Of a stretch of 64,000 bases of DNA, positions 23,655-29,576 are shown piece by piece. A program made the translations under genes and the position numbers. A model generated the notes under the pieces. It was not told where the DNA came from and ran no database searches. It saw nothing but the letters and a program-made list of their open reading frames with translations. Where the stretch lies: the NCBI RefSeq assembly GCF_013359725.1, contig NZ_JABFMW010000013.1:1-64000 (forward strand), read 5' to 3'. Each line of letters begins with the position of its first letter. The stretch's first letter is position 1. Source of the DNA: Pseudarthrobacter sp. C4D7. GTDB lineage: Bacteria; Actinomycetota; Actinomycetes; Actinomycetales; Micrococcaceae.

Positions 23655-23696
23655 ATGGGAGAAAAGGCGGGCCGCAGGAACGGGAGCAGGTCATGA
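23655..23696 (+). CDS. 13-codon leader ORF
   Basis: ATG 23655 is preceded by AGGAAGGAGG, the best ribosome-binding site in this part of the window. It opens a 13-residue reading frame (MGEKAGRRNGSRS) whose TGA overlaps the ATG of the next gene in an ATGA junction. The peptide is basic, with no hydrophobic part. Its likely role is to load ribosomes for translational coupling; an attenuator role is possible, but I see no codon run that would sense an amino acid. Whether the peptide is made is unknown. Confidence 0.5.
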   Translation: MGEKAGRRNGSRS

Positions 23697-24019
23697 GTAC
23701 TCGCAGCAGGGGCAAGGGCCTGGCCGCAGGGATCACGGCGGCCGTTGGCGTGGGCAGCTTCGCCGCTGCCGGCGTTGCCGCAGCCGCCGTCTACGCGGCA
23801 ACCCCTTCCGTGATCGCCCGGACCAGCCCCGCTGCGGACACCAGCACCACAGAGCCCAGCACACCCAAATCCGGGTCCGCCCGCTCCGACGACGATGACC
23901 ACGGAACCACCAGGAACACTGCGCCACGCCGCTCCAAGAGTTACGGCAGTTCCGGGACCACCACCCCGGTGCAGCCGGGCAACGGCAGTACCGTCCACGG
24001 CCGGTCCTCGGGGTCCTGA
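23693..24019 (+). CDS. Small membrane-anchored Ser/Thr/Asp-rich protein
   Basis: A 108-residue protein with no family I recognise. Residues about 9-36 are one hydrophobic Ala/Gly/Val helix after a basic start (STRSRGKG), so it should be anchored with the C-terminus outside. The external tail is low-complexity: TSTTEPSTPKSGS, SDDDDHG, then SYGSSGTTTPVQPGNGS. It is the first full gene of an operon with ApbE, a heme membrane protein, a NuoF-like protein and a ferredoxin. The Gly-Thr-Thr segment is a conceivable flavin-attachment site, but it does not match the known SGAT pattern. It overlaps the leader ORF and has GGGAGCAGG upstream. Confidence 0.7.
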   Translation: MSTRSRGKGLAAGITAAVGVGSFAAAGVAAAAVYAATPSVIARTSPAADTSTTEPSTPKSGSARSDDDDHGTTRNTAPRRSKSYGSSGTTTPVQPGNGSTVHGRSSGS

Positions 24020-24020
24020 C

Positions 24021-25160
24021 ATGGCCCGTTCCGCACTGGCCGCACCCGGCGCATCAGGCACCAGGACCGCCACTACTCCGCCCGCGGAAAATGCCGCGCC
24101 GCCGGAAAATCCTGCCCCGTCCGAGAATCCTGCCCAGTCCGAAAATCCAGCTCAGTCCACGTGGACGGTATGGGGGCTTGAAGCGTCCGTCAGGGTGACG
24201 CAACCGGAGCTGCTTGCCGCCGCCGGCGATATCGTCCGCGATGTGGTGGCGGACGTGGACCTTGCCTGCAGCCGGTTCCGCGCGGACTCCGAGCTGACGC
24301 GGCTCCAGCCACTGATGGCGGCCGGCGTCGGCATCAGCCCGATGTTCCGACTGCTCCTCGAGCGTGCCCTGGACGCCGCCCGGCTGACCGGCGGCGACGT
24401 GGACCCCACCCTCGGCGCAGAGTTGGCCGCGTTGGGCCATGGCCCGAAGTGGCCGGCACCCGGACTCACCAGCGTCCCGCTGCCTCCGCAGCCGGCATCC
24501 TCCCGGCAACCGGCGTCGCCCCGGCAACCGGCATTGCCCCAACAGCCCCCTGCGCCGCGGGAGCCCGGCTGGAGCCGCCTGCACCTTGACGGCTCGACCC
24601 TTACCGTTCCAGCGGATCTCCGACTGGACCTGGGAGCATCGGCAAAAGCAGTCGCGGCGGACCTTGCCGCTGCACGTGTCTACCGGGAGCTGGGCTGCGG
24701 GGTGCTCGTGGGCCTGGGCGGTGACCTGGCAACAGCAGGGCCTGGGCCGCAGGAGGACGGCACGCCCGGCCACTGGCAGATCATGGTGCAGGACCTTGCT
24801 GCGGATCCCGCCCAGCAGATCTCCCTGGCTCCCGGATTTGCCCTTGCCACCTCCAGTACGCAGAAACGCCGCTGGGACCACCACGGAACCCAGGTCCACC
24901 ACATCCTTGACCCCCGCTTCGGCCTCCCCGCTGAACCGGTCTGGCGCTCGGTGACCGTGGCGGCCCCTGCCTGCCTGGAAGCGAACGCCTTCAGTACGGC
25001 TGCCATCGTGCGGGGCTTCGCGGCCCTCGAATGGCTTCGGAGCGAAGGAGTACCTGCCCGGTTCGTGGACAGCCGCGGAAGGGTAACTGCCACCGGGGAC
25101 TGGCCCGCCGAAAGCTGCAGCCCGGCGGGGGACAGCAGGGGAGGGGTGCGTCATGGATGA
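24021..25160 (+). CDS. apbE: ApbE-family FAD:protein FMN transferase
   Basis: A 379-residue enzyme of the ApbE family, which moves FMN from FAD onto Ser/Thr of a target protein. Family blocks are present though divergent: LDLGASAKAVAADLA (about residue 205), VGLGGDLATAG, ALATSSTQKRRW, HHILDPRFG, and VAAPACLEANAFSTAA. The first 48 residues are a Pro/Glu/Asn repeat (ENPAPSENPAQSENPAQS), and a QPAS-type repeat interrupts the domain near residue 160. No signal peptide or lipobox is seen, so unlike many ApbE proteins it seems cytosolic. It overlaps the next gene by eight bases. Confidence 0.85.
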   Translation: MARSALAAPGASGTRTATTPPAENAAPPENPAPSENPAQSENPAQSTWTVWGLEASVRVTQPELLAAAGDIVRDVVADVDLACSRFRADSELTRLQPLMAAGVGISPMFRLLLERALDAARLTGGDVDPTLGAELAALGHGPKWPAPGLTSVPLPPQPASSRQPASPRQPALPQQPPAPREPGWSRLHLDGSTLTVPADLRLDLGASAKAVAADLAAARVYRELGCGVLVGLGGDLATAGPGPQEDGTPGHWQIMVQDLAADPAQQISLAPGFALATSSTQKRRWDHHGTQVHHILDPRFGLPAEPVWRSVTVAAPACLEANAFSTAAIVRGFAALEWLRSEGVPARFVDSRGRVTATGDWPAESCSPAGDSRGGVRHG

Positions 25161-25710
25161 GGCAATGTGGGCGTTCGGCCGGGTCAGCGGATTTGTGTCG
25201 CTGGCACTCTTCACCGCATCCGTGCTGCTGGGCATCCTGAACCGGTCAGGCCGGCCCTTGCTGGTCCTGCCGCGGTTCTCCATCAGCCTCCTGCACCGGA
25301 ACATTGCACTGCTCGCCACGGTGTTCCTCGGACTGCACGTGGGCTCCCTGCTCCTGGACTCCTTCGCCAAGCTGAACCCGGTGGACATCGTGGTGCCGTT
25401 CCTGGGCTCCTTCCAGCCGTTCTGGCAGGGCCTGGGCACCGCGGCGCTGGACCTTGTCCTGGCCGTGGTGGTGACGGGCCTGCTGCGGCACCGGATCGGG
25501 CAGCGCAGCTTCAAGGCCGTGCACTGGCTCAGCTACGGCATCTGGCCGGTGGCGATGGCACACGCCCTGGGCAACGGCACCGACGTCTCCAGGGGCTGGT
25601 TCCTCCTGCTGGCCGCGGCGTCCGCGGTGGCCGTTGCGGCAGCCCTGCTGTGGCGGCTGAGCCCCTCCTTCCTCGAAACCTCCCATGCCCGGCAAGGAAA
25701 CCTCCCGTGA
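25153..25710 (+). CDS. Ferric-reductase-like di-heme transmembrane protein
   Basis: A 185-residue membrane protein with five or six helices. H48 (LLHRNIA), H62 (GLHVGSL), H124 (AVHWLSYG) and H137 (AMAHALG) form two pairs spaced 14 and 13 residues apart, the pattern that binds two b hemes across the membrane in the ferric reductase/cytochrome b superfamily. It lacks the FAD/NAD domain of full ferric reductases. In this operon the NuoF-like protein and ferredoxin could supply electrons from NADH, and the heme protein could pass them outward. It overlaps both neighbours. Confidence 0.85.
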   Translation: MDEAMWAFGRVSGFVSLALFTASVLLGILNRSGRPLLVLPRFSISLLHRNIALLATVFLGLHVGSLLLDSFAKLNPVDIVVPFLGSFQPFWQGLGTAALDLVLAVVVTGLLRHRIGQRSFKAVHWLSYGIWPVAMAHALGNGTDVSRGWFLLLAAASAVAVAAALLWRLSPSFLETSHARQGNLP

Positions 25711-26975
25711 GCTACGCCAACGACACCTACCCGCAGGTGCCCCTCCATGCCGCAAAGGAGGGCAAAGGCCAGGAACCCCGGCTCCTGGCAGCAGGCCCGG
25801 ACGCGGGCTGGGGGCAGCATCTTGACACCTTTGGGCCCTGGGATCCCCGTTCTGCCGAAACCGGCCTGCTGGAGCAGCTCACGGAGGCCGGCCTGACCGG
25901 ACGGGGCGGAGCCGCTTTCGAAACCTGGCGCAAGGCCACTGCCGCCGCCGGGTCCGGACGGAAAGGCATGTTTACGGCACGGCCGGTAGTGATCGCCAAC
26001 GGCGCAGAAGGCGAACCCCTGAGCTTTAAGGACCGCACCCTCCTCGCCCACGCACCCCACCTGGTCATCGACGGACTGGCGGCCCTGTCCGCGGCCCTGG
26101 GCGGCGCGAGCATGTACGTCTACGCACCGGCGGCCGGTCTTCCCCGCGTGGAACAGGCCGTCGGCGAACGCCCCCGCAGCAAGCGGATCCGCATGGTCCA
26201 GGCCCCCGAAACCTTCATCTCGGGCGAGTCGAGCGCCGTCGTCAACATGATTGCCAACGGCAACGCCGTTCCCACGGACCAGCGCCGCCGCCTCAGCGAA
26301 TCCGGCCTCAACGGCCGGCCCACACTGGTGGTCAACGTTGAAACCCTGGCCCAGGTTGCCCTGATCGCCCGGTTCGGGGCGCCATGGTTCCGCCAGGCCG
26401 GGACCGCAACGGATCCGGGCACACGCCTAGTGTCCGTTTCCGGGCCTGCCCCGGCGCGGGACGTGGTGCTGGAAGTTCCCGGCGGCGCCCAACTCCCGGC
26501 AGTCCTGCGGGAAGCGGGCATGGATCCCGCCGCCCTGTCTGCCGTCCTGGTGGGCGGCTACCATGGCCGCTGGGTTCGCCCCGCCGGGCATGCACTCTCG
26601 CCCGTGGGTCCGCCGGACCGGACTGCCCGGCCGGGCGCAGGCGTGATCCATGCATTGGACCTGCAGGCCTGCGGCATCCAGGCGACGGCGCGGATCGTCA
26701 GCTACCTCGCCGACCAGTCCGCCAGGCAGTGCGGTCCCTGCATGTTCGGCCTGCCGGCCATGGCCTCGGTCCTTAACCGGATTGCCGGCGGGGAAATCAA
26801 TCACCGGCTTGCCGCCGAGCTGGACCGGCTGGGGAAGCTGGTCTCCGGGCGCGGCGCATGCCGGCACCCGGAGGGGACCACCGGCCTGGTCAGCAGCGCC
26901 TTGGAGGTGTTCGCCGCGGACTTCCGCGCCCACCTTTTGGGCTACTGCACCGGACCGGGAGGGGCAGCGGCATGA
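25707..26975 (+). CDS. NuoF/SLBB-type NADH-binding oxidoreductase subunit
   Basis: A 422-residue protein resembling the 51-kDa (NuoF) subunit of complex I. LTGRGGAAFETWRKA (FMN loop), NGAEGEPLSFKDRTLL (NADH/FMN) and ETFISGESSAVVNM match NuoF blocks in order. The Fe-S region is altered: RQCGPCMFG (about residue 342) keeps two of the three clustered Cys, and GACRHPEG (about 385) supplies a later one. It probably oxidises NADH in the cytosol and passes electrons to the ferredoxin or heme protein encoded beside it. GTG 25707 overlaps the previous TGA. Confidence 0.83.
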   Translation: MSYANDTYPQVPLHAAKEGKGQEPRLLAAGPDAGWGQHLDTFGPWDPRSAETGLLEQLTEAGLTGRGGAAFETWRKATAAAGSGRKGMFTARPVVIANGAEGEPLSFKDRTLLAHAPHLVIDGLAALSAALGGASMYVYAPAAGLPRVEQAVGERPRSKRIRMVQAPETFISGESSAVVNMIANGNAVPTDQRRRLSESGLNGRPTLVVNVETLAQVALIARFGAPWFRQAGTATDPGTRLVSVSGPAPARDVVLEVPGGAQLPAVLREAGMDPAALSAVLVGGYHGRWVRPAGHALSPVGPPDRTARPGAGVIHALDLQACGIQATARIVSYLADQSARQCGPCMFGLPAMASVLNRIAGGEINHRLAAELDRLGKLVSGRGACRHPEGTTGLVSSALEVFAADFRAHLLGYCTGPGGAAA

Positions 26976-27232
26976 CAACCCACCTGCACATCGACTGGAC
27001 CAGCTGCGACGGCCGCGGCCTGTGCACCGAACTGCTGCCCGGTGTGCTGGACCGGGACGACTGGGGCTACCCGCTGGCGCGCGGAAAGTCGGGCCGGGAA
27101 CGGACCGATGTCCCGCTGCGCGATGCAGACCGGGAAGCCGCACACGAAGCCGTCCGCCTGTGCCCCAAGTTGGCCCTCAGCCTGTGGGACGGGGAGAAGC
27201 CGGAACCGGGCAGGCGCCGGCCCGGGCAATGA
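26972..27232 (+). CDS. Three-cysteine ferredoxin
   Basis: An 86-residue acidic protein. C12 and C18 (SCDGRGLC) and C64 (VRLCPKLAL) are the only cysteines, the arrangement of small [3Fe-4S] ferredoxins in actinobacteria (often paired with P450s). Here it is the last gene of the ApbE/heme/NuoF-like operon, overlapping the previous stop as ATGA, so it is more likely an electron carrier for that chain. The C-terminus is Pro/Arg-rich. Confidence 0.85.
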   Translation: MTTHLHIDWTSCDGRGLCTELLPGVLDRDDWGYPLARGKSGRERTDVPLRDADREAAHEAVRLCPKLALSLWDGEKPEPGRRRPGQ

Positions 27233-29300: not shown

Positions 29301-29373
29301 TCCTCCTTAGCTCAATTGGCAGAGCATTCGACTGTTAATCGAAGGGTTGCTGGTTCAAGTCCAGCAGGAGGAG
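29301..29373 (+). tRNA. tRNA-Asn (GTT), copy 1
   Basis: A 73-base cloverleaf. Acceptor TCCTCCT pairs with AGGAGGA with discriminator G; the D-arm is AGCTCAATTGGCAGAGC; the anticodon loop is CTGTTAA with anticodon GTT; the T-arm is GCTGG-TTCAAGT-CCAGC. No CCA is encoded. TAATAC (29286-29291) is a likely -10 box. An intrinsic terminator follows directly. Confidence 0.96.
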
Positions 29374-29380
29374 CTTCCAT

Positions 29381-29495: not shown

Positions 29496-29568
29496 TCCTC
29501 CTTAGCTCAATTGGCAGAGCATTCGACTGTTAATCGAAGGGTTGCTGGTTCAAGTCCAGCAGGAGGAG
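29496..29568 (+). tRNA. tRNA-Asn (GTT), copy 2
   Basis: The 73 bases are identical to copy 1. Upstream, TCATAC (29481-29486) holds the same nine-base spacing to the tRNA as TAATAC in copy 1, and CTTCAT directly before the gene is shared. The copies are 195 bases apart and each has its own terminator. Confidence 0.96.
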
Positions 29569-29576
29569 CGCAACGA

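Follow-up and report, generated by a model that had tools for sequence, protein, structure and literature searches.

The published minimal target of ApbE, an FAD:protein FMN transferase, is a stretch of seven residues, D-x-x-[ST]-G-A-[ST], with FMN attached to the last of them; the heptamer works best at the N or C terminus of a protein, and the effect of changing its Asp to Ala is minor (PMC12052999). In the engineered Flavin-tag (Tong et al., reviewed in PMC12052999), such a terminal heptapeptide is sufficient for ApbE. The FMN_bind, DUF2271, DUF3570 and NqrB/RnfD substrates, each with an [ST]GA[ST] site and a partner ApbE, are all folded domains. In Lactococcus FMN_red (Huang et al. 2024, PMC11334425), the target motif is carried on an unstructured C-terminal extension, and a folded flavin-binding domain is there to accept the flavin. 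The MsrQ-like flavinylation systems surveyed by Meheust et al. (2021, eLife, PMC8238504) include a NuoF-containing subset of 31 clusters, in which a gene for an FMN-binding domain is typically present.

The locus described here lies in Pseudarthrobacter sp. C4D7, whose 4.3 Mb genome is assembled in 65 contigs; the window, the 64,000-nucleotide stretch that was analysed, is part of one of them (C4). The earlier note had described an operon of five tightly packed genes, and this is borne out by the ORF listing and by Pfam: the five genes, all on the forward strand, overlap or are separated by 1-base gaps. The first (23693..24019) encodes a 108-residue protein with one helix and without a Pfam or credible NCBIfam match. 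Its coding sequence begins at the ATG at 23693; a start at 23655 was rejected, as it belongs to a 13-codon upstream ORF of non-conserved length. It is followed by genes for an ApbE (24021..25160; PF02424, E 3.8e-44), a Ferric_reduct/MsrQ-like membrane cytochrome with four invariant His (25153..25710; PF01794, 4.1e-8), a NuoF-like NADH-binding FMN/Fe-S protein (25707..26975; PF01512, 8.6e-27; PF10589, 6.5e-16) and a single-cluster ferredoxin with three Cys (26972..27232; Fer4_15, 8.1e-12). A dGTPase-like HD protein flanks the operon on one side and DnaG on the other.

The operon resembles the NuoF-containing MsrQ-like subset in its predicted two-heme Ferric_reduct/MsrQ-like protein, its ApbE, its NuoF-like PF10589 protein as the NADH entry and its actinobacterial host (PMC8238504). 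A PF01794 protein with conserved heme His adjoins the ApbE, as expected of an MsrQ-like system, whereas the gene for an FMN-binding domain is absent from the cluster and a domain-less tail takes its place. The published survey retained ApbE and FMN_bind genes only if a signal or lipidation site was predicted (PMC8238504), and the operon ApbE has neither. While MsrQ-like clusters with NuoF are known, the domain-less C-terminal flavin tail proposed here is apparently new: no published precedent was found in the open-licence literature. Judged from sequence, the operon is likely to be an electron-export module in which a flavin carrier without a folded domain would receive FMN on its terminal Ser from the co-encoded ApbE.

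The 108-residue protein consists of a basic N-terminus, a helix at about residues 17–33, a disordered linker and a conserved C-terminal tail, VHGRSSGS. No FMN_bind match was obtained with Pfam for this protein or five relatives, and DUF2271, DUF3570 and NqrB/RnfD domains are likewise absent from the small protein. The operon lacks an FMN_bind domain, as the earlier note had put forward, and [ST]GA[ST] does not occur in the 108-residue protein. Small proteins from different families cannot be aligned with one another, and what remains constant is the plan of a basic N-terminus, one helix, a linker and a fixed C-terminus. An origin by decay of a former FMN_bind protein was considered and rejected in view of how widely the tail protein occurs in the absence of that domain. 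The linker measures 40–159 residues and is composed of 26% Ser, 16% Gly, 13% Thr and 11% Pro; one outlier (L051) was a mis-picked histidine kinase. Fully extended, such a string could span tens of nanometres by our estimate, enough for a Gram-positive wall. Next to the helix, Lys and Arg number 3.76 on average on its N side versus 0.73 on its C side, and the N side is richer in 63 of 67 proteins; on this basis the small protein is predicted to be N-in/C-out with its tail outside, although the tail may alternatively be cytoplasmic.

The C-terminus was compared across 15 relatives and 80 further loci. Candidates were ORFs that terminate immediately before ApbE; the one with the highest third-position GC (GC3) was picked at each locus, blind to its tail, which gave 82 picks; the 67 with a helix were used for the tail counts. 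The pattern [ST]-x-[GA]-S-COOH occurs in 53 of these 67, against 1.9 on average and never more than 9 when the last 40 residues of each protein were shuffled over 2000 rounds, and in 18 of 22 families at least half of the loci match it. Counts across these related loci are not phylogenetically independent. By position, His is found at -7 in 29/67, Ser or Thr at -4 in 58/67, Gly at -2 in 52/67 and Ser at -1 in 57/67. The resulting consensus, H-[AG]-x-[ST]-[GS]-[GA]-S, lines up position by position with the ApbE heptamer. It shares its terminal placement with the Flavin-tag, which is an engineered D-x-x-[ST]-G-A-[ST], whereas the motif here is natural and ends exactly at the Ser proposed to be modified. 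The target-like motif on an unstructured C-terminal extension recalls Lactococcus FMN_red (PMC11334425), from which the small protein differs in having no folded domain.

A second, named set of loci agreed with the blind picks: the tail was present at all eight loci with upstream sequence, seven times in the top GC3 pick and once in the second. These tails are GKSAGS in Arthrobacter sp. HY1533, QATTGGS in Symbioplanes lichenis, STSGAS in Streptomyces griseorubiginosus, HGRSGGS in Amycolatopsis rhizosphaerae (the second GC3 pick), QASSGGS in Pseudonocardia sp. 73-21, QTTTGGS in Streptacidiphilus fuscans, VATTSGS in a Nocardioides sp. and TTTKGS in an actinomycete MAG. The typical tail is missing at a few loci (L051, L078, L080, L111, L114), a point against the flavin-tail reading. 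In the window, the terminal heptapeptide H-G-R-S-S-G-S is encoded at 23996..24016 of the forward strand, and its last Ser is the proposed flavinylation site. It departs from the exact published heptamer: Ser at -4 and -1 is kept, Asp is replaced by His and G-A by S-G. The [GS]-G-S ending of the main clade, in place of G-A-[ST], counts against reading the tail as a flavin acceptor. TGAS or SGAS tails occur in relatives (L079, L089, L090, L092–L096, L099, L107, L120); in divergent lineages a literal TGAS stands at the very end (L079, L099, L107) or is followed by 2–4 further residues (L089, L090, L092–L096).

The last four residues and the Gly at -6 do not vary among eleven sequences from the genus, and all five columns show synonymous codon changes, a pattern that points to purifying selection on the tail within the genus. 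The earlier note had placed the flavin on GSSGTTTPV, a choice that must be abandoned, as this segment varies and is partly deleted even in same-genus copies, in contrast to the invariant C-terminal SSGS. A tail that is modified otherwise, by glycosylation or processing, or that serves as a docking tag, could also be envisaged, Ser/Gly-rich linkers simply ending in this way. The 26% Ser and 16% Gly of the linkers fit such an origin, as does the frequent O-glycosylation of Ser-rich linkers in actinobacterial surface proteins. It is nevertheless extremely improbable in our judgement, given that the motif appears in no more than 9 of 67 linkers after shuffling, compared with the 53 observed, and that it occupies one fixed place in a gene adjoining ApbE. 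The small protein is instead well supported, by inference, as a putative minimal flavinylation substrate with its site in the C-terminal SSGS. The constant partnership with ApbE, the target-like tail and the 22 genomes without the searched acceptor domains, described below, make the 108-residue protein a likely acceptor, and the domain-less acceptor suggested earlier therefore stands, with a different site.

Additional target-like sequences were noticed near some operons. At L092–L097 (and L107), a second single-helix protein is encoded about 500 bases further upstream of ApbE; its TGAS precedes a short acidic tail, as in STGASGSTGGDDSKNDSKEPGDD, and it probably serves the operon as another flavin acceptor. 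Upstream of ApbE at L074 lies a Ser-rich ORF ending in HATSGATS, a near-canonical target motif, and the region adjoining ApbE is partly masked (N). When more tail proteins were sought in the Pseudarthrobacter genome with a degenerate DNA pattern, about 2000 matches were obtained, no more than with its reversed control.

The arrangement is not confined to the window, as the search for the same gene order proposed in the earlier note makes clear. Across the 15 relatives and 80 further loci, the order small protein–ApbE–cytochrome–NuoF–ferredoxin is seen again in dozens of Actinomycete loci, and at some loci ApbE or NuoF is not nearby (e.g. L041, L042, L047, L091). The cytochrome is present in 10 other genomes of the genus and, within a sample of 395 genomes from the class, in 146 at an E-value of 1e-6 or below. 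Among the matches listed, no FMN_bind gene lies within 5 kb of any operon, and no recurrent acceptor gene adjoining the operon was seen in the loci read. A response regulator and a histidine kinase are encoded directly upstream of the operon at L033, L034, L036 and L123, in several distant families, so the operon is likely regulated; the two-component system is absent in the window.

The operon ApbE could conceivably flavinylate an FMN_bind protein from another locus, in which case the small protein would be unrelated to flavinylation and might anchor the cytochrome complex or assist its assembly. Two FMN_bind proteins are indeed encoded elsewhere in the window's genome, on contigs C31 and C22, and at least one is found in 44 of 71 operon genomes, in calls that rest on Pfam, an HMM built from two FMN_bind sequences having proved too weak. 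Both genes form ordinary FMN_bind and ApbE pairs (C31:31.7–34 kb, L001; C22:203–204.4 kb, L002), one of them with an FNR-type ferric reductase. Each thus has its own ApbE, so an FMN_bind partner is not needed for the operon ApbE. Moreover, 22 of the 71 operon genomes, from 12 families, encode exactly one ApbE, that of the operon, and no FMN_bind protein, and an FMN_bind protein elsewhere was on this ground rejected as the general target. In these 22 genomes neither NqrB/RnfD nor DUF3570 was found, and DUF2271 gave no match over the cut-off, only three weak partial ones. The tail is not typical in all of these genomes: at L051 (G267) none adjoins ApbE, and the ends are atypical at L112–L115 (G157, G114, G403, G304). 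An FMN_bind target elsewhere also leaves the conserved ApbE-like C-terminal motif unexplained, and we regard it as very unlikely.

The operon ApbE belongs to its family by sequence (PF02424) and by fold: its AlphaFold model (pLDDT 85.8) has P. stutzeri ApbE 5mgy as its best PDB match (E 1e-19), with 4xdt and 1vrm also matched. In our alignment reading, S257, R262, H273 and D301 of Listeria FmnB correspond, with identical spacing, to S278, R283, H294 and N322, and FmnB D184 corresponds to D203. The catalytic and FAD-binding residues S278, H294, R283 and D203 show little or no variation across 84 operon ApbEs. The metal-binding Asp is not retained: the D301 position holds Asn in 61 and Glu in 22 of the 83 scorable operon ApbEs and never Asp, which is kept in the genome's other two ApbEs. 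Asp301 of FmnB holds both Mg ions, and Ala replacement of these FmnB residues, Asp301 among them, greatly reduces or abolishes activity. The loss of this catalytic residue counts against flavinylation and, occurring in 83 of 83 enzymes, would suit an ApbE that supplies NuoF with FMN by binding or hydrolysing FAD, with a tail that signals contact or maturation; an FAD pyrophosphatase activity is documented in the family for Treponema Ftp (PMC4767422). This role appears quite improbable, as the equivalents of FmnB S257, H273, R262 and D184 are all kept and the tail mimics a transferase target, down to a literal TGAS in divergent members. Because the rest of the site is conserved and the tail is target-like, we favour a putative transferase with an altered metal site over another activity.

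The residue at the D301 position may bear on the shape of the substrate. Tails end exactly at Ser at 55 of 59 Asn loci versus 8 of 21 Glu loci (Fisher p 1e-6, ignoring relatedness), a contrast that rests on very few evolutionary changes and for which eleven tails mis-picked by GC3 were replaced by tails read directly at the loci; several Glu-locus tails run 2–4 residues past TGAS. The contrast suggested to us a new ApbE subfamily with substrate-assisted metal binding, in which the free carboxylate of the terminal Ser would replace the metal Asp lost to Asn, so that only chain ends would be modified, an idea that is speculative and on balance unlikely.

No signal peptide or hydrophobic N-terminus was detected in the operon ApbE. 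The earlier note was correct on this point, yet the feature is general rather than peculiar, as a hydrophobic N-terminus is absent in 83 of 84 operon ApbEs and in the genome's other two, the partners of which look exported. A signal-less ApbE and a tail predicted outside do not fit easily together, which counts against the flavin-tail reading. Cytosolic ApbE is known from Klebsiella, where the target is cytosolic as well (PMC12052999). Modification before export is the simplest reading.

Of the redox proteins, the cytochrome has H48, H62, H124 and H137 invariant in an alignment with ten relatives down to 27% identity and is predicted to carry two b hemes. The NuoF-like protein scores 140.9 bits against TIGR01959, below the equivalog cut-off of 558.65, and is a NuoF-like paralogue. 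In its family C-G-P-C is present and the third Cys of the NuoF cluster motif is absent, yet C320, C383 and C412 are conserved, so Fe-S ligation is likely altered in the protein encoded at 25707–26975. The three Cys of the ferredoxin suggest a 3Fe-4S type.

In the proposed mechanism, electrons taken from NADH by NuoF would pass via the ferredoxin to the two-heme cytochrome, and from there across the membrane to an FMN covalently bound at the terminal Ser of the small protein. The tail would be a chain-end version of the ApbE heptamer, flavinylated by the co-encoded ApbE, and the disordered linker of 40–159 residues would give the flavin the freedom to move between the cytochrome and acceptors located within the wall or past it. 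We infer both the flavinylation and the route and direction of electron flow, with order and direction taken from known families (MsrQ-like systems, PMC8238504). The putative NADH-to-outside chain of the earlier note fits the parts and the predicted N-in/C-out topology. If the mechanism is correct, a covalent redox flavin would work without a surrounding protein fold, on the end of a wall-length string, along an electron-export route spread across many actinobacterial families. Signal-less ‘orphan’ actinobacterial ApbEs would gain a substrate invisible to domain searches, and a natural C-terminal flavin tag would be available together with its matching enzyme.

Outside the operon, the window carries tandem tRNA-Asn(gtt) genes at 29301–29374 and 29496–29569, and the ORFs called across both are spurious.
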